From positions 1-7,869 of the forward strand of contig MHDQ01000062.1 in assembly GCA_001803565.1 (NCBI GenBank): a stretch of DNA of 7,869 nt. Reading direction: 5' to 3'. This DNA is from Nitrospinae bacterium RIFCSPLOWO2_12_FULL_45_22. GTDB taxonomy: Bacteria; 2-12-FULL-45-22. The position numbers and the translations under genes were made by a program. Under the pieces are notes generated by a model. It made no database searches. It saw nothing but the letters and a program-made list of their open reading frames with translations, and had not been told where the DNA came from. Shown here piece after piece: positions 176 through 7,869 of this stretch (within the stretch, counting starts at the first letter, position 1; each line of letters opens with the position of its first letter).

Positions 176-2593
176 ATGAAGATTATTTATCGTTCCATCC
201 TCAAAGAGTTAATTTCCTTTTTCTTATTAGGTTTAGTGATCTTTTCTTTCATCCTGCTTTTAGAAAGGATCATTTACCTCATTGACCTAAGCTTTAAGCA
301 GGGAGTTCCGTTCTTAATTACCCTTAAACTTTTAATATATATTTTCCCGACCTTCGCTATATTTACTATCCCTGTTTCGCTGCTGGTAGCGAGTGTTACC
401 GTCTTTAGTCGCTTATCGAGTGATGGTGAGATTGTGGCTTTAAAGGCTTCGGGCTTTAGTCTATATCGGTTGTTAATTCCCGGGGTCATTCTTTCTCTTT
501 TTGTGGCGCTAGTTAATGCCTTTTTTATCCTCTGGGGCCAACCCTGGGGTAATCAGGCCTTTAAGAAAGCCCTATTTCAGTTAGTAGAATCCCAGGCAAA
601 TCTAAACCTCAAAGAAGGGGTGTTTAACGATTATCCTGGAGGATTAGTTATCTATGTGAGAGAGATACCATTAGGTGAGGCCCGCTTAAAGAGAGTAGTG
701 ATTTCAGATACCAGGGATCAGGAATCTTCCCAGATAATCTTTGGTGAGGAAGGTGTTCTGGTTTCTAATCCTGGTGGAGCAAACCCAGTATTGGCATTAA
801 AAAATGGCTCTATCCACAAAATCTTTGGGGATAAAGGTAAGTATGAGTTGTTGAATTTCTCCTCTTACCAGCTCTCTTTAGGGGGCTATAATATGTGGGA
901 CCAGGAAGAAGGTTCTAAGAAGTCTAGCAAGGAGATGACCTTTAAGGAGATCAGAGAAAAGCTGAATGAGTGGGTTCAATCCAAGCCCAGGGACTATCGG
1001 GAAAGCAGATATTATTATAAAGTATTGACCGAATTCCACCGGAAATTTTCTTTGCCCTATGCCTGTCTTGTCCTGGGATTATTGGGCATACCTCTCGGGA
1101 TAAAAAACCAGCGGAGCGGTCGCTCCGGGGGTTTTGCCATCAGTATTGTGGTCCTAACAATCTATAACATGCTCTCGGTAACTAGTGAAGGACTGGCAGA
1201 AGGAGGAGGAATCCATCCTTTATTAGCCTTGTGGATCCCTAACCTTATCTTAACCCTGGTGACTGTTTATGTGATATATAAAGTAGGACAGGAACTACCT
1301 TTTAAGGGCTTAGAGAGGCTCGTGGAGTGGGTAGAGGAATGGCTGGACAAGTTGATAAAGGGCTTAGAAAGGCCCCTGGGGTGGGGAAAGAGATGGCGGG
1401 ATAAGTGGAAGAAAAAGAAGGGGTCGGAACCCTTCAGAGGAGTCTCGCAAGGCAAGAATATAACCCCACCAAAACAGGGGTTATATTCTGGGCTATTGGT
1501 CCAACCCCGGCTTAAAATCCTGAACCGCTATCTAGCCCGAGAGTATGGGAAGATACTTTTTTTTGGGTTAGGAGCCTTTGTGAGTATATATTTTTTAGTG
1601 GAGTTCATCGGCCGCCTTGAAGATATGGCCCACCATGGGACCGAGCTATACTATCTGTTCCTTTATTTTGTTTATAAATTACCGGCTATTATCTACCAGG
1701 TATTACCCTTTGCTATCCTATTATCATCTATTGTTACTATAACTCTTCTGGGCCGTAATAATGAGCTGACTGCTATAAAATCTTGTGGCATCAGCCTCTA
1801 TCGCTTATCCGTACCGCTGCTCATACTAGGACTATTATTCAGTTTTTTCTCCTTCCTGGGCAATGAGTTCCTCCTGCCTTATACCAACCACCAGGCTGAT
1901 CAGATGTTACGGGTAAAGATCAAGAAGAGGATACCCAGGGGTGTCTTTAAGAATACAAAGATTTGGTATCGTGGAGAAGATAATACCATCTGGCATATTC
2001 AACTCTTATCTCCGGCTGGGAAAGTCATGCGGGGTGTTACGCTCTTGAAGTTTGATGAGCAGGAGTGGCTGAAAGAGAGAGTGGATGCCGATAGGGTTGA
2101 ATGGAAGGACAAAAGATTTATGTTTCTTTCTGGCTATGCCAGAAATTTTAGCCCAGATGGTTCTATGCAGAGCCACTATTTTTCCCAGAGAGAGGTTTAT
2201 TCTACTGAACAGATAGAGGATTTCCGAATAGTACAGAAAACGCCGGAACAGATGAGTTTTAGGGAATTATATGGCTTTGTTCAGAAACTGAGGATTAATG
2301 GGTTTGATGCCACGGCATATACCGTAGATATGCATTCCAAGCTTTCTCTACCCATGGCGTGCCTCATTATGGTCATTGTGGGGATTCCTTTTTCGCTCCG
2401 TTCTTCCCGGAGTGGAGGGTTGCCTTTGGGGATAATCTTTAGCCTCTTCCTGGGATTTGCCTATTGGTTGCTTTATTTTATTGGTATCTCCTTAGGCCAT
2501 GCTGGCCGCCTTCCTCCCTTGGTAGCGGCATGGAGTACTGATATCCTCTTTTTGGCAGTAGCGATCTATCTTATTCTGAGCGATAGACAATAA
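176..2593 (+). CDS. lptFG: Fused LptF-LptG lipopolysaccharide export permease
   Basis: This encodes both transmembrane halves of the LPS-export ABC transporter (LptB2FG), which extracts LPS from the inner membrane and passes it to LptC/LptA. Residues 1-376 are LptF-like: an N-terminal hydrophobic block (about 11-120), a soluble periplasmic beta domain (about 125-285) and C-terminal membrane helices (about 291-370). Residues 446-805 repeat this plan as LptG-like. Each half has the cytoplasmic coupling-helix pattern for LptB contact (EIVALKASGFSLYRL at 85-99; ELTAIKSCGISLYRL at 530-544) and a matching motif after the beta domain (FSLPYACL...GIPLG; LSLPMACL...GIPFS). LptF and LptG are normally separate proteins of about 350-400 residues encoded side by side, so 805 residues fits a two-gene fusion. 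The linker (about 377-445) would lie in the cytoplasm. I chose ATG 176 over TTG 161 because LptF proteins usually begin with an MKI-like stretch; no strong ribosome binding site precedes either. No LptB, LptC or LptA gene is in the window. Confidence 0.9.
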   Translation: MKIIYRSILKELISFFLLGLVIFSFILLLERIIYLIDLSFKQGVPFLITLKLLIYIFPTFAIFTIPVSLLVASVTVFSRLSSDGEIVALKASGFSLYRLLIPGVILSLFVALVNAFFILWGQPWGNQAFKKALFQLVESQANLNLKEGVFNDYPGGLVIYVREIPLGEARLKRVVISDTRDQESSQIIFGEEGVLVSNPGGANPVLALKNGSIHKIFGDKGKYELLNFSSYQLSLGGYNMWDQEEGSKKSSKEMTFKEIREKLNEWVQSKPRDYRESRYYYKVLTEFHRKFSLPYACLVLGLLGIPLGIKNQRSGRSGGFAISIVVLTIYNMLSVTSEGLAEGGGIHPLLALWIPNLILTLVTVYVIYKVGQELPFKGLERLVEWVEEWLDKLIKGLERPLGWGKRWRDKWKKKKGSEPFRGVSQGKNITPPKQGLYSGLLVQPRLKILNRYLAREYGKILFFGLGAFVSIYFLVEFIGRLEDMAHHGTELYYLFLYFVYKLPAIIYQVLPFAILLSSIVTITLLGRNNELTAIKSCGISLYRLSVPLLILGLLFSFFSFLGNEFLLPYTNHQADQMLRVKIKKRIPRGVFKNTKIWYRGEDNTIWHIQLLSPAGKVMRGVTLLKFDEQEWLKERVDADRVEWKDKRFMFLSGYARNFSPDGSMQSHYFSQREVYSTEQIEDFRIVQKTPEQMSFRELYGFVQKLRINGFDATAYTVDMHSKLSLPMACLIMVIVGIPFSLRSSRSGGLPLGIIFSLFLGFAYWLLYFIGISLGHAGRLPPLVAAWSTDILFLAVAIYLILSDRQ
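1304..1411 (+). repeat. Tandem 54-bp duplication in the LptFG linker
   Basis: Two adjacent 54-bp units (1304-1357 and 1358-1411) align without gaps and lie in frame inside lptFG. They encode 18-residue units KGLERLVEWVEEWLDKLI and KGLERPLGWGKRWRDKWK (residues 377-394 and 395-412). KGLER and the two tryptophans at unit positions 9 and 13 are kept. Eighteen residues equal five alpha-helical turns, so the first unit could form an amphipathic helix; Pro and Gly in the second make it less regular. The first unit is net acidic and the second strongly basic. Confidence 0.8.
1455..1489. repeat. Perfect 13-bp inverted repeat inside lptFG
   Basis: AGAATATAACCCC at 1455-1467 is exactly complementary to GGGGTTATATTCT at 1477-1489, with a 9-nt loop. 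It is translated in frame as about KNITPPKQGLYS (residues 427-438), at the end of the linker and just before the LptG-like domain. No T-run follows, so it is unlikely to be an intrinsic terminator. It may be a relic of a former lptF-lptG intergenic palindrome or a small palindromic insertion that became coding. Confidence 0.75.
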
Positions 2594-2659: not shown

Positions 2660-4165
2660 TTAGTAGAGGCTGGCCCGGGCTATTTTCCCGGTGCCGGTCT
2701 TGGGGAGATACTCCCTAAATTCAATCAGGTCGGGGATCTTAAAATCAGCCAGGTGTTCTCGACAGTAAGATTGGATGTCCTTTTTCGAGAGCTTGTGTCC
2801 AGGTCTGGGTACTATGATTGCCTTGACCCGTTCTCCGCGCATGAAATCTGGCACCCCAATGACGGCTACCTCTCCTATCCCTGGGTGCTTCAATAGGCAT
2901 TCTTCTATCTCTGCGGGATAGACATTCAATCCTCCGGTGATAATCATATCCTTTCCCCGGCCTACAATATAGAGATAATTGTCCTGGTCAAACCTCCCTA
3001 GATCGCCACTATAAAACCAGCCATCTCTAATCACCTGGGCAGTGGCCTCAGGGTTATTATAATAGCCTTTCATGACCTGTGGTCCCTTGATAATAACCTC
3101 TCCTACCTCACCCGGTGGCAGGACGTTGCCTTTTTCATCCACTACTCGTATTTCTACCCGAGGGACGGGTTTACCGGCACTACCCAGCTTCTTTTCCCAG
3201 TCTTCCAACGATACTAAAGTTACTATAGGAGAAGTTTCAGTCAATCCGTATCCCTGTAACACCTTTACTCCGGGATATCTATCCTTAAACTCCTCCATGA
3301 GGACCAGGGGTACTGGTGCACCCATCATGGCAATAAAGCGTAAACTGCTGGTATCATAATGCCGTTCCCGGCTTACTTTTAACAGGGCCTGGAAGATGGG
3401 GGGCACGCCATGAAACCAGCTTATCCTGTGCCTTTCTATTGCTTCCAGTATAGTTTCGGGCCGGATGGTATCCAGGATAACCAGGGTACTACCTAGCAGG
3501 ATCAGTTGGTTGATAAGGATCGGGCCAGAGATATGGGACATGGGTAGCAAGATGGCATTGATGTCGTCTTCTGTTACCCCAAGCGGTGCCATAGTCTCCG
3601 GGAAGCAGTCTAGATGATCAAAGGTTAAGACCACCCCTTTGGGGCGGCCAGTAGTGCCTGAAGTATATAGGATTAAGGCATCATCACTCCCCTTAACTTT
3701 TATATCCCAGTTTATTTCCGCAGGGTATTGGATAAGCTCTTCATAACCAAGGGTATTGCCATCCCATTTCTGGTTAGTCCCCACCCCAATTACTTTCAGG
3801 AAATCCTTTAACTCTTTCTCTAGCTCCCTGACTAAGCCCAAGGAAGAATGGTGGGCTATCAGGGTAGAGACTCCCCAATCCCTGATGATAGAGCTGATCT
3901 CTTCTTTAGTCAATCGTATATCTAATGGGATTGCTACGCTCCCCATCTGCACAACCGCCAGATAAGCAACAGCAAACTCTGGACAGTTGGGCAGCAATAA
4001 GGCCACTTTATTTTTCTGGCTAACCCCGTGTTCTCTTAAAGCCCTGGAAAGAGAAGCGGCTTCGGTTTTGATCTGTTCAAAACTTAGTCTCTGATTCCGA
4101 TAAATTATAGCGGTCTTGTGGGGCAGCCGGCTGGCAGTCTCTTCCAAGGTCTTCCGTATATCCAT
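2660..4165 (-). CDS. AMP-forming acyl-CoA ligase (FadD/AcsA superfamily)
   Basis: A 501-residue member of the ANL adenylating superfamily, which activates a carboxylic acid with ATP to an acyl-AMP and then transfers it to CoA. The core motifs are present: P-loop YTSGTTGRPKGV (167-178), GYGLTET (305-311), YSGDLG (385-390), hinge GRGKDMIITGG (402-412) and PKTGTGKI (488-495), with the presumed catalytic Lys494. It therefore looks active. Length is near the low end for the family; the protein stops seven residues after Lys494, so the C-terminal tail is short. GGAGGG (4174-4179) lies 8 nt before the ATG and supports this start. It is the last gene of the cluster, 83 bp after the MoaD-like gene. 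The neighbouring aldehyde oxidoreductase suggests its substrate is the acid made by that enzyme, but chain length or aromatic preference cannot be read from the sequence. Confidence 0.92.
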   Translation of the reverse strand: MDIRKTLEETASRLPHKTAIIYRNQRLSFEQIKTEAASLSRALREHGVSQKNKVALLLPNCPEFAVAYLAVVQMGSVAIPLDIRLTKEEISSIIRDWGVSTLIAHHSSLGLVRELEKELKDFLKVIGVGTNQKWDGNTLGYEELIQYPAEINWDIKVKGSDDALILYTSGTTGRPKGVVLTFDHLDCFPETMAPLGVTEDDINAILLPMSHISGPILINQLILLGSTLVILDTIRPETILEAIERHRISWFHGVPPIFQALLKVSRERHYDTSSLRFIAMMGAPVPLVLMEEFKDRYPGVKVLQGYGLTETSPIVTLVSLEDWEKKLGSAGKPVPRVEIRVVDEKGNVLPPGEVGEVIIKGPQVMKGYYNNPEATAQVIRDGWFYSGDLGRFDQDNYLYIVGRGKDMIITGGLNVYPAEIEECLLKHPGIGEVAVIGVPDFMRGERVKAIIVPRPGHKLSKKDIQSYCREHLADFKIPDLIEFREYLPKTGTGKIARASLY

Positions 4166-4248
4166 GGGTCTTTCCCTCCGTTAGCTAAATATCTTATTCC
4201 CCTCAGCCCGCCAATATAAAACTGGTTACTGTTGGCAAAGAAGGTTAA

Positions 4249-4530
4249 CTAGCCGCCTCCCAATGCGGAGAGGACAGATAGCTGATCCTGGTGCTTAAGG
4301 ACAGTGGTGCTATCTGAGAAGTAATTTATTCTATCCCCGTTAAGTAAAATTACCCAGCCCGCAGGGAATTCGTCTTTGACTTTAGCAAAGAGTTTTATCT
4401 TTAGCTTTTTGTCAATGAGGCGAAAGATTTCGGCCAGAGGAGTCTCCTTTTGGATCTCCAGCGAGAAGCTCTCCTTGAGAAATTTTTGGGCGAAGATGCC
4501 CCGGATATTGACTTCTATTTCGTGGGACAT
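4249..4530 (-). CDS. MoaD/ThiS-family ubiquitin-like sulfur carrier
   Basis: A 93-residue protein with the size and layout of a beta-grasp sulfur carrier. It starts with an MSHEIEVNIRG strand, has VILLNGDRINYF in the middle (typical MoaD/ThiS V-x-x-NG pattern) and ends in LSALGGG. The terminal Gly-Gly is the residue pair that family members have adenylated by MoeB/ThiF-like enzymes and converted to a thiocarboxylate. It begins 13 bp after the aldehyde oxidoreductase stop, so the two are very likely co-transcribed. That position suggests it donates dithiolene sulfur during pterin cofactor synthesis for this tungsten/molybdenum enzyme, a recurring arrangement for AOR-family genes. Its ribosome binding site is weak (a GTGA overlapping the upstream stop), so translational coupling is possible. 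A ThiS or other sulfur-transfer role is not excluded. No MoeB, MoaE or MoaA gene is in the window. Confidence 0.82.
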   Translation of the reverse strand: MSHEIEVNIRGIFAQKFLKESFSLEIQKETPLAEIFRLIDKKLKIKLFAKVKDEFPAGWVILLNGDRINYFSDSTTVLKHQDQLSVLSALGGG

Positions 4531-4543
4531 GGGTATATTCGTA

Positions 4544-6547
4544 TCACTTTACGGCTACCATATCGCCTACCAATTCCTTCAAGTCTAGTTCCTGTAATGC
4601 TTCTTCTGAAGGTATGCCACTTATAGGGTCCCAGCCCTTCTCTAAATAAAAATTCTTTGTCAAGGTGTTTACATCAACAGTGATCCCCTTTATAGAGCCT
4701 GCTGTCAGAGGAGGAACCCCAGCAGCGCGGGGTGGCAACTGAAAATCCTTTGGTAGTAGCCCTTCTCGCAGGTTAAAGCAGTGGCGTAAAGTATGGATTC
4801 GATTACCGATCTTTAATGCATCATCAAAGGTGAGATTCCATCCGGTTACGGCATTGATCATTTCTACTAACGGAAGGTCTTGATACATAAGGGGATAGAA
4901 CAGACACATACCAGCACAGTTTATGACATGCATATAGTTACTTTGTAGTGTATGGAGCTTCCCCTTGTTTTCATAGTCATAGCGTTTGATTTCGGGGATA
5001 TTATAGCGGGCATAAAAGTCTGGCTTAAGGAAACCCATCTCGAAGAAGGCTGCCCCTCCTTGAGTATGGCGGGCGGGGGTAGGGTCGGCACAATAAGTGG
5101 TAGCAAAGCTGGGGCTGAGGCGAGGGTCGTGCATAGGTAGTTCCTGGCCGGCTACATGGATGGCATACTGTTCTGATCCCTTACCGATCTTTTGGGCAGC
5201 TACCCGCACCCCATCGGCAAAGATATCCCCGATGCCATCTCGTTCGCCCATTCTTTTTAGTAACTGTATAACTGCCTCATGGTTGCCCCACGTCAGCTCC
5301 AGGCCATCAGCTTGAGCCTTTGAGAGAGCCCCCTTCTCAAAGCATTCTATGGCAAAGGCAACCGTTACTCCAGCAGAAATGGTATCAAAACCGTATCGGT
5401 TGCATAAATCATTGGCCATAATGATAGATTCCACATTATCATTCAGGCACATAGCACCGAAAGAGGCCAGGGTTTCATATTCTGGCTTATGGCCATGAGG
5501 CAAGGCATACCTGCCCTCTTTTACTTCCATAATACCACCACAGGCCACGATGCAGTTGGCGCAGGCAAATTTTTTTACCTGATACTTAATTACATTATCA
5601 TCGCTGATCTTAGAGGATTTCTTGGCCATAGAAAAATCCTGATAGGCAACCCCTAGCCAGTTCTTTAATGGGGCATCCTGCATCTCACACGAAACAGCAG
5701 TTAGGCCAGCAGTGCCATAGTCGTGAAACAATTGATTTACCGCCTTAACATCAGGTGGAGGCAGAGGGACCTTTAGACGGATCATGAGGGGCAAAAGGGG
5801 TTTTAATATCTTGGCCAAAAAGTCTTGAAACTTAGTAGGCCTAAGGGCCAATTGTTCCCGGATCATCTTGTTTAGCTCTTTCAGTCTGCCTTCATCGGCA
5901 ATAGCGGTCTTCTCCTTTCCTCTAACAGCCAGGGCCTTAAGATTTTTGGAACCCATAACTGCGCCTAAACCCGAGCGGGCCGCTGCCCTCCCTTTGTCAT
6001 TGATTATACAGGAGATAAGGGATAGCTTTTCTCCGGCAGGGCCGATACTGGCTATTTTTAACTGGTTGTCTCCTAATTCCTGGCAGATTTGGTCTTCGGT
6101 CTCATTAGTATCTTTACCCCATAGATGGCCAGCATCTCTTAGTTCCTTGGAACCATTACCCAGGTAGAGATAAACCGGTTTAGGAGATTTACCCGTAAAG
6201 AATATGGCATCGTAGCCAGTGCTTTTCAAAGCCGGTGCTAGATAGCCACCAGAATTGGCATCTCCCCAGGTGCCGGTTAGGGGAGATTTAGCTACGACAG
6301 TGTATCTGCCACAGCCCAGGGCACCGGTATGATTTAATGGTCCGGTAGTAAAACCCAGGATATTATCTGGTCCCAAAGGGTCTACACCAGGTTTCAACCG
6401 TTCATAAAGATATTTTACCCCTAAGCCATATCCTCCTAGAAACTTTTGGTATAACTCAGTGGGGACCTCTTCTTCCCTCAGTTCCCTGGTGGTCAAATCT
6501 ACCCAAAGAATCTTACCTGTATATCCTTTCAATCTTTCCTGTGCCAT
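4544..6547 (-). CDS. aor: Tungsten-type aldehyde:ferredoxin oxidoreductase (AOR family)
   Basis: A 667-residue full-length member of the AOR family, cytoplasmic enzymes with a tungsten (sometimes molybdenum) bis-pterin and one [4Fe-4S] cluster that oxidise aldehydes to acids, usually with ferredoxin. Recognisable segments are GKILWVDLTT (11-20), GGYGLGVKYLYE (38-49), ARSGLGAVMGSKNLKAL (190-206), the cluster motif Cys329-x2-Cys332-x3-Cys336, PEYETLASFG (355-364), DTISAG (388-393) and NCAGMC (543-548), whose Cys548 is the likely fourth cluster ligand. The usual DxxGxC motif reads NxxGMC here. Residues about 236-268 form a hydrophobic, Pro-rich insert relative to the short AOR enzymes. AGGAGGGG (6553-6560) is well placed before the ATG. 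It is the first gene of the cluster with the MoaD-like carrier and acyl-CoA ligase. Other reactions of the family, including benzoyl-CoA reductase subunit BamB, glyceraldehyde-3-phosphate or formaldehyde oxidation, cannot be ruled out; no BamC-I partners are visible. Confidence 0.93.
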   Translation of the reverse strand: MAQERLKGYTGKILWVDLTTRELREEEVPTELYQKFLGGYGLGVKYLYERLKPGVDPLGPDNILGFTTGPLNHTGALGCGRYTVVAKSPLTGTWGDANSGGYLAPALKSTGYDAIFFTGKSPKPVYLYLGNGSKELRDAGHLWGKDTNETEDQICQELGDNQLKIASIGPAGEKLSLISCIINDKGRAAARSGLGAVMGSKNLKALAVRGKEKTAIADEGRLKELNKMIREQLALRPTKFQDFLAKILKPLLPLMIRLKVPLPPPDVKAVNQLFHDYGTAGLTAVSCEMQDAPLKNWLGVAYQDFSMAKKSSKISDDNVIKYQVKKFACANCIVACGGIMEVKEGRYALPHGHKPEYETLASFGAMCLNDNVESIIMANDLCNRYGFDTISAGVTVAFAIECFEKGALSKAQADGLELTWGNHEAVIQLLKRMGERDGIGDIFADGVRVAAQKIGKGSEQYAIHVAGQELPMHDPRLSPSFATTYCADPTPARHTQGGAAFFEMGFLKPDFYARYNIPEIKRYDYENKGKLHTLQSNYMHVINCAGMCLFYPLMYQDLPLVEMINAVTGWNLTFDDALKIGNRIHTLRHCFNLREGLLPKDFQLPPRAAGVPPLTAGSIKGITVDVNTLTKNFYLEKGWDPISGIPSEEALQELDLKELVGDMVAVK

Positions 6548-6867: not shown

Positions 6868-7869
6868 TTAATTGAGGCAAACATTAGCAAATATTAACGG
6901 ATTTTCTAAGACCATCCCTGACCCGTTAACCACGGCCCTTAACGGATCTTCTGCTACAATAAAGGTACGACCAGTCTCCTGGGAGAGGTAGGTGTCCAAC
7001 CCCCTCAGGAGAGAACCGCCACCAGCCAGCATGATACTATCTTGTTGGATATCTGCGGCTAGGGCCGCGGGGATGTGCTCTAAAGCCCTGATAATCAACT
7101 CAGCAATGGCCTTTAGCGGCCTCTTGAGCCCCGCTCTTATCAGTTCATTGTCTATGGTAACCGATTTAGGCAAATCTGTTACCATATCCTTTCCCCTTAC
7201 TGTGGTCTCTAGTTTTTCTGGTAAGGAAATGGCCGAGCCTATTTCTTTTTTTATTCTCTCTGCCTCAAGGAGGCTGATAACAAGGTTGCATTTTTGCCGG
7301 ATATGCTGTTGGATAGCCTCATCCATCTCGTCACCGGCTATTTTTATGGCCTCCCAATGGGCTATCTCAGATGAGGCTATGACCGCTACTTCCGTAGTCC
7401 CACCACCAATATCAACGATCATATGGGCGGTTGCTTCCTGAACCGGTATCTTTGCCCCTATAGCGGCTGCCATGGGTTCAGGGAGAAAATAGACTTTTCT
7501 GGCCTTACAATGCTGCGCTATCTCCCGGATAACCCTCCTCTCATACTGAGTAATGGCCGAGTGGACACAGATGAGCAGCCTGGGTTTTAGGAAGGCCTTC
7601 TTTTTTATGACCTGCTTCATGAAGGATGAGACCATCTGCTCTGTGCTGTCATAATCGGCTATACTTCCATCTTGCAGTGGCCTTATAGTCTTTATATAAT
7701 CTGGGGTCTTCCCAAACATATCCCTGGCTTCTTTACCCACTGCCCTAATAGAGGAATCCCTTTCTGATATTGCTACCACGGAAGGCTCATCCAAGACCAC
7801 CCCCTTTCCCTTAATATAGATGAGGGTATTGGCAGTACCAAGGTCTAGTGCTAAATCATCGTAAAAGAT
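6868..7869 (-). CDS. mreB: MreB cell-shape actin homologue, 5' end beyond window
   Basis: A bacterial actin that forms membrane-associated filaments and guides sidewall peptidoglycan synthesis in rod-shaped cells. The visible frame has 333 codons and is open to the right edge, so the start lies outside; the GTG at 7800 is internal, because the 23 codons before it encode the MreB N-terminal phosphate-1 signature DLALDLGTANT. Also present, numbered from the window edge, are EPMAAAIGA (131-139), phosphate-2 DIGGGTTEVAV (153-163) and the adenosine motif LAGGGSLLRGLD (282-293). The usual MreB stretch ICVPSGIT reads ICVHSAIT. Family length is about 340-350, so only about 5-15 residues are missing. 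The C-terminus ends FANVCLN. No mreC or mreD follows; the next gene downstream is aor, 320 bp away. A paralogue such as Mbl is possible. Confidence 0.93.
   Translation of the reverse strand: MFYDDLALDLGTANTLIYIKGKGVVLDEPSVVAISERDSSIRAVGKEARDMFGKTPDYIKTIRPLQDGSIADYDSTEQMVSSFMKQVIKKKAFLKPRLLICVHSAITQYERRVIREIAQHCKARKVYFLPEPMAAAIGAKIPVQEATAHMIVDIGGGTTEVAVIASSEIAHWEAIKIAGDEMDEAIQQHIRQKCNLVISLLEAERIKKEIGSAISLPEKLETTVRGKDMVTDLPKSVTIDNELIRAGLKRPLKAIAELIIRALEHIPAALAADIQQDSIMLAGGGSLLRGLDTYLSQETGRTFIVAEDPLRAVVNGSGMVLENPLIFANVCLN

Follow-up and report, generated by a model that had tools for sequence, protein, structure and literature searches.

The asymmetry of the LptFG pair is central to LPS extraction, and also to new antibiotics acting on LptB2FG. 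The closest described system is LptB2FG(C), a type VI ABC transporter with solved structures (PDB 6MIT, 6MJP, 6S8G and 8FRL), and in all of the solved LptB2FG structures matched in this work LptF and LptG are separate chains. In a classification of ABC transporters, type VI comprises heterodimers only, whereas type V includes a single chain (PMC8386196). Diderm Firmicutes carry a single LptF/G homologue, which is a different reduction (PMC5007114). Searches of the open-licence literature turned up no paper describing a natural fusion of LptF and LptG. Proteins with two PF03739 domains are very likely already present in protein databases.

One open frame with an LptF half and an LptG half

The window analysed here, 7,869 nucleotides in length, is an entire contig of the 3.67 Mb genome of Nitrospinae bacterium RIFCSPLOWO2_12_FULL_45_22, which is 85% complete and assembled in 321 contigs. 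The first-pass annotation claimed that one frame in this window contains both complete LptF and complete LptG, and the features that bear on this claim are as follows.

176..2593, plus strand: lptF-lptG fusion gene, 805 aa, ~92 kDa, stop-free frame with two full PF03739 domains
176..1291, plus strand: LptF half, residues 1-372, with TM1-3, beta domain and TM4-6; matches TIGR04407 and solved LptF chains
428..430, plus strand: LptF coupling-helix glutamate E85, aligned with LptF E84 of solved structures
1514..2590, plus strand: LptG half, residues 447-805, with TM1-3, beta domain and TM4-6; matches TIGR04408 and solved LptG chains
1763..1765, plus strand: LptG coupling-helix glutamate E530, aligned with LptG E88 of solved structures

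Translation showed that the frame starts with ATG at 176 and ends with a stop codon at 2593, without any stop in between. PF03739 was matched twice at full length, by residues 6-369 in the N half and residues 451-801 of the fusion, with bit scores of 268 and 295 in the whole-genome profile search. When each half was searched against the family profiles, the N half reached 249.9 bits with LptF TIGR04407 (residues 3-368; equivalog cut-off 230), and the C half reached 305.9 bits with LptG TIGR04408 (equivalog cut-off 240), giving the order F then G. Each half stayed below the NCBIfam cut-off of the other family, and therefore the protein is LptF-LptG and a tandem duplicate of LptF or of LptG alone was ruled out. 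The PDB searches gave the same assignment, LptF chains for the LptF half and LptG chains for the LptG half. Both memberships in the TMD families thus stand, although F and G are here not two separate chains but one open frame. These results bore out the first-pass claim, and judged from its sequence the gene product is a single-chain variant of the LptB2FG(C) transporter.

The annotation also gave each half its own coupling helix, beta domain and C-terminal helices, and the evidence agreed with this. Hydropathy analysis showed twelve hydrophobic segments arranged as 6+6, none of them within the linker between the halves, and the positions of E85 and E530 were invariant in seven aligned fusions. 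An AlphaFold model of the fusion, which was built from only five sequences and is weak (mean pLDDT 59, pTM 0.45, too low for judging whether the halves pack around an LPS cavity with a lateral gate), showed in each half a beta domain flanked on either side by three helices. Its best structural matches were LptG and LptF chains, a fold match that applies to each half only. The window protein therefore shares with LptB2FG(C) the same TMD families, the 6+6 helices, the beta domains and the glutamates, and matching LptB and LptC genes are found in the same genome.

As for these partner genes, one LptB match passed the equivalog cut-off with 354 bits, LptC (79 bits) was located in the same cluster, and between the LptB and LptC genes lies a gene with the size and position of LptA, which it likely is. 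LptD and LpxC genes are present elsewhere in the genome. The profile search of this 85% complete genome revealed no further PF03739 protein, and the fusion is the only LptF/LptG copy found. From its gene content, this is the genome of an LPS-type outer-membrane bacterium with one LptFG permease. That the fusion handles a substrate other than LPS, for example another lipid or a glycan, would have a precedent of a kind in Borrelia burgdorferi, which is said to lack LPS and has LptF/G-like permeases (PMC10353723), but the equivalog-level LptF and LptG stand here together with LpxC, LptD, LptC and LptB in one genome, and we consider such a substrate very improbable.

The rest of the window carries genes on the minus strand. 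The first three listed below apparently form one operon, running from the aldehyde ferredoxin oxidoreductase family gene through the ThiS/MoaD-like gene to the acyl-CoA ligase gene (2660-6547).

4544-6547, minus strand: aldehyde ferredoxin oxidoreductase family protein
4249-4530, minus strand: ThiS/MoaD-like protein, score just below the Pfam cut-off
2660-4165, minus strand: acyl-CoA ligase
6868-7869, minus strand: MreB gene, truncated where the contig stops

The linker and the two-gene layout of the nearest relatives

The two halves are joined by a translated linker, whose bounds are our own definition and lie near the 1290-1515 of the first-pass annotation.

1292..1513, plus strand: linker, residues 373-446, hydrophilic, 17 K/R of 74 residues, outside both Pfam domains
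1304..1409, plus strand: tandem duplication of two 52-nt copies, repeating every 54 nt with 79% identity and encoding 18-residue amphipathic repeats KGLERLVEWVEEWLDKLI / KGLERPLGWGKRWRDKWK
1455..1489, plus strand: perfect 13-bp inverted repeat with a 9-nt loop, within the translated linker
1511..1513, plus strand: CTT codon (L446), at the position of the TTG start of the separate lptG in the nearest relative

The linker thus contains the two tandem amphipathic repeats, a basic stretch and a hairpin, and the hairpin was more stable than shuffled sequences (z -3.2). Two properties of the linker count against the single-chain reading: its GC content of 51% departs from the 42-44% of the two halves, and no homologue of its sequence was found. 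The window gave no match to an Rfam family or a tRNA. The hairpin was also considered as a dispersed repeat and rejected as such, since other parts of the genome gave only partial matches of 14-19 nt that do not form a hairpin of this kind. The earlier placement of the linker on the cytoplasmic side is compatible with the even number of helices and with its content of lysine and arginine, from which we infer a cytoplasmic location.

In the nearest relative (locus L045, genome G215), which is 47% identical to the window over 718 columns, lptF and lptG are separate and adjacent, about 14 nt apart, in contrast to the one frame of the window. Its LptF tail stops about 30 residues past the last helix, and much of the linker in the window is therefore extra sequence. 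Its lptG starts at the residue matching L446 and begins TTG AAA ATT, while the window reads CTT AAA ATC at the same place. Among the relatives that were read, lptF and lptG usually lie next to each other as two genes.

Such a layout raises the alternative that lptF and lptG are two adjacent genes in this organism too, and that an indel or a misjoin in the linker, by assembly or sequencing error, lost the stop. The assembly is fragmented and incomplete, this fusion is represented by a single sequence, the nearest relatives have separate genes, and both the duplication and the hairpin in the linker are error-prone spots for assembly. Against an error, the linker frame is open for 74 codons while both other frames contain stops, and its GC content at third positions is 0.61, above positions 1 and 2. 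Moreover, the position of the ancestral lptG start is now CTT, and no ATG occurs in frame from the end of the LptF domain up to nt 1625. We therefore regard an error as unlikely.

No close relative with split genes and identical flanks, which the first-pass annotation named as evidence against a fusion, was found: the split relatives are 47% identical and belong to other families, and the one with an identified downstream neighbour has no flanking gene in common with the window. Since they are distant and the flank is not shared, their two genes likely represent the ancestral state and not a missed stop; on sequence comparison, separate adjacent genes are likely ancestral. The phylum is represented by two genomes in the collection, and the other one, 68% complete, gave no PF03739 match; a contig scan with the window protein as query found no relative.

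The frame could also be genuine and still yield two chains, either by cleavage of the chain in the linker or by a restart of LptG at TTG 1496, the only late candidate start, past the hairpin. The linker is basic and of low confidence in the AlphaFold model, TTG 1496 is a possible start, and the strong hairpin just upstream of it could affect translation. However, no Shine-Dalgarno-like sequence was found upstream of TTG 1496 (none was found before the LptF start at 176 either), linkers differ from one fusion to another, and no common cleavage site is apparent. A two-chain LptFG arising in this way seems slightly less probable still than an assembly error.

LptF-LptG fusions in other lineages

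The search for fused or separate genes sampled 386 genomes from across the domain and was extended by a follow-up, with candidates checked by translation. In addition to the split pairs of the nearest kin, it confirmed LptF-LptG fusions in at least eight more genera of four other lineages, these counts being lower bounds among the matches listed.

L064, L065 and L096: confirmed fusions, candidate division CSSED10-310
L073, L068 and L094: confirmed fusions, family f36
L070 and L067: confirmed fusions

In CSSED10-310 three genomes have a complete gene, and each of the three is a fusion (56-68% identity), a fourth gene being cut by a contig end. In family f36 the gene was found in three genomes, again always as a fusion (59-63% identity). 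Fusions of CSSED10-310 (JAFGLW010000025.1, JAFGEQ010000017.1 and JAFGMN010000310.1; L099-L101) have F then G in one frame with a linker, like the window, but are only about 30-33% identical to it, with an unalignable linker and a place elsewhere on the tree. The fusions of family f36, L070 and L067 are likewise single frames with LptF then LptG, but show about 27-28% identity to the window (those aligned), unalignable linkers and other positions on the tree. An alignment of seven fusions was very diverse, too diverse to serve as a search query. In two of these lineages, several genera have kept fusions of this layout, which indicates that the state is real elsewhere and further argues against an assembly error in the window.

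Automated frame lengths merged two genes split by a single stop, for example in G023, G385 and G149. These three genomes and G138 were rejected as fusions, with two genes in each by translation. The first-pass statement that LptF and LptG are nearly always separate proved broadly right as a description of the family, but such fusions have come up repeatedly outside the lineage of the window.

For a phylogeny, 50 pairs of LptF and LptG were concatenated with the linker excluded. The fused state required at least four changes on this tree, three of them forced by well-supported branches; the window was placed among five split pairs with 99% SH-aLRT support, and the AU test rejected a single fused clade (p 6e-63). 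A single origin of the fusion is thus not supported, and the tree points to several independent origins, whose exact number is uncertain because it is a quick tree with long branches. Together with the split genes of the nearest kin, this result indicates recurrent fusion of neighbouring genes.

The survey gave two further observations on PF03739 proteins. Some families, f17 and f114 among others, have one such protein per genome among the matches listed, which suggests homodimeric permeases. In another phylum, all 61 sampled genomes had an LptF/G-type permease matching the query, and most had it in one long frame of about 1,100-1,470 codons (automated lengths, translation-checked in three loci only).

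L107:1067-5347, minus strand: protein of 1426 aa carrying a single LptF/G permease domain (residues 6-351); grouped with L109 and L110

In the L107 protein, the permease domain is followed by a hydrophobic, signal-like helix and then by about 1,000 residues related to LptD. A profile of this part from the three loci matched the solved LptD 8h1r with an E value of 2.7e-5, while the match to the LptD family was weak. The sequences suggest a candidate chain in which an inner-membrane permease is joined to the outer-membrane LptD, and such an LptF/G::LptD chain may be more surprising than the LptF-LptG fusion.

Proposed function, origin and meaning of the single chain

Taking the evidence together, the gene very probably specifies the complete transmembrane part of LptB2FG(C) in a single chain, which would work as an LPS extractor. 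Its sequence makes it most likely an LptB2FG(C) transporter of the usual kind, in which F and G are joined covalently. The two halves would fold next to each other in the membrane like LptF and LptG, with the positively charged linker in the cytoplasm, and the LptB homodimer would dock on the two unlike coupling helices. LptC would join, and ATP-driven squeezing would hand LPS to LptC, LptA and then LptD, as in E. coli; the covalent tie probably leaves the mechanism of transport as it is.

Because adjacent split lptF-lptG pairs are usual among relatives, the likely origin of the fusion is that the lptF stop and the adjacent lptG start were replaced by an in-frame linker. The likely gain would be that F and G are always produced together and in a constant ratio, and it is reasonable to expect, as the first-pass annotation did, that a covalent pair fixes the 1:1 stoichiometry. 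A broader view would take single-chain type VI ABC permeases as a recurrent natural design with at least three origins, in which the tie was selected and the linker aids transport or assembly and is not a passive tether; we hold this view only tentatively and consider it rather doubtful.

For the family, natural single chains mean that the pair tolerates a link from the C-terminus of F to the N-terminus of G. The single-chain form also fixes which half is which, and could be used directly as a construct for making asymmetric mutants and solving structures. Finally, that fusion has occurred repeatedly across distinct lineages independently supports the view that LptF and LptG act as an obligate 1:1 pair.
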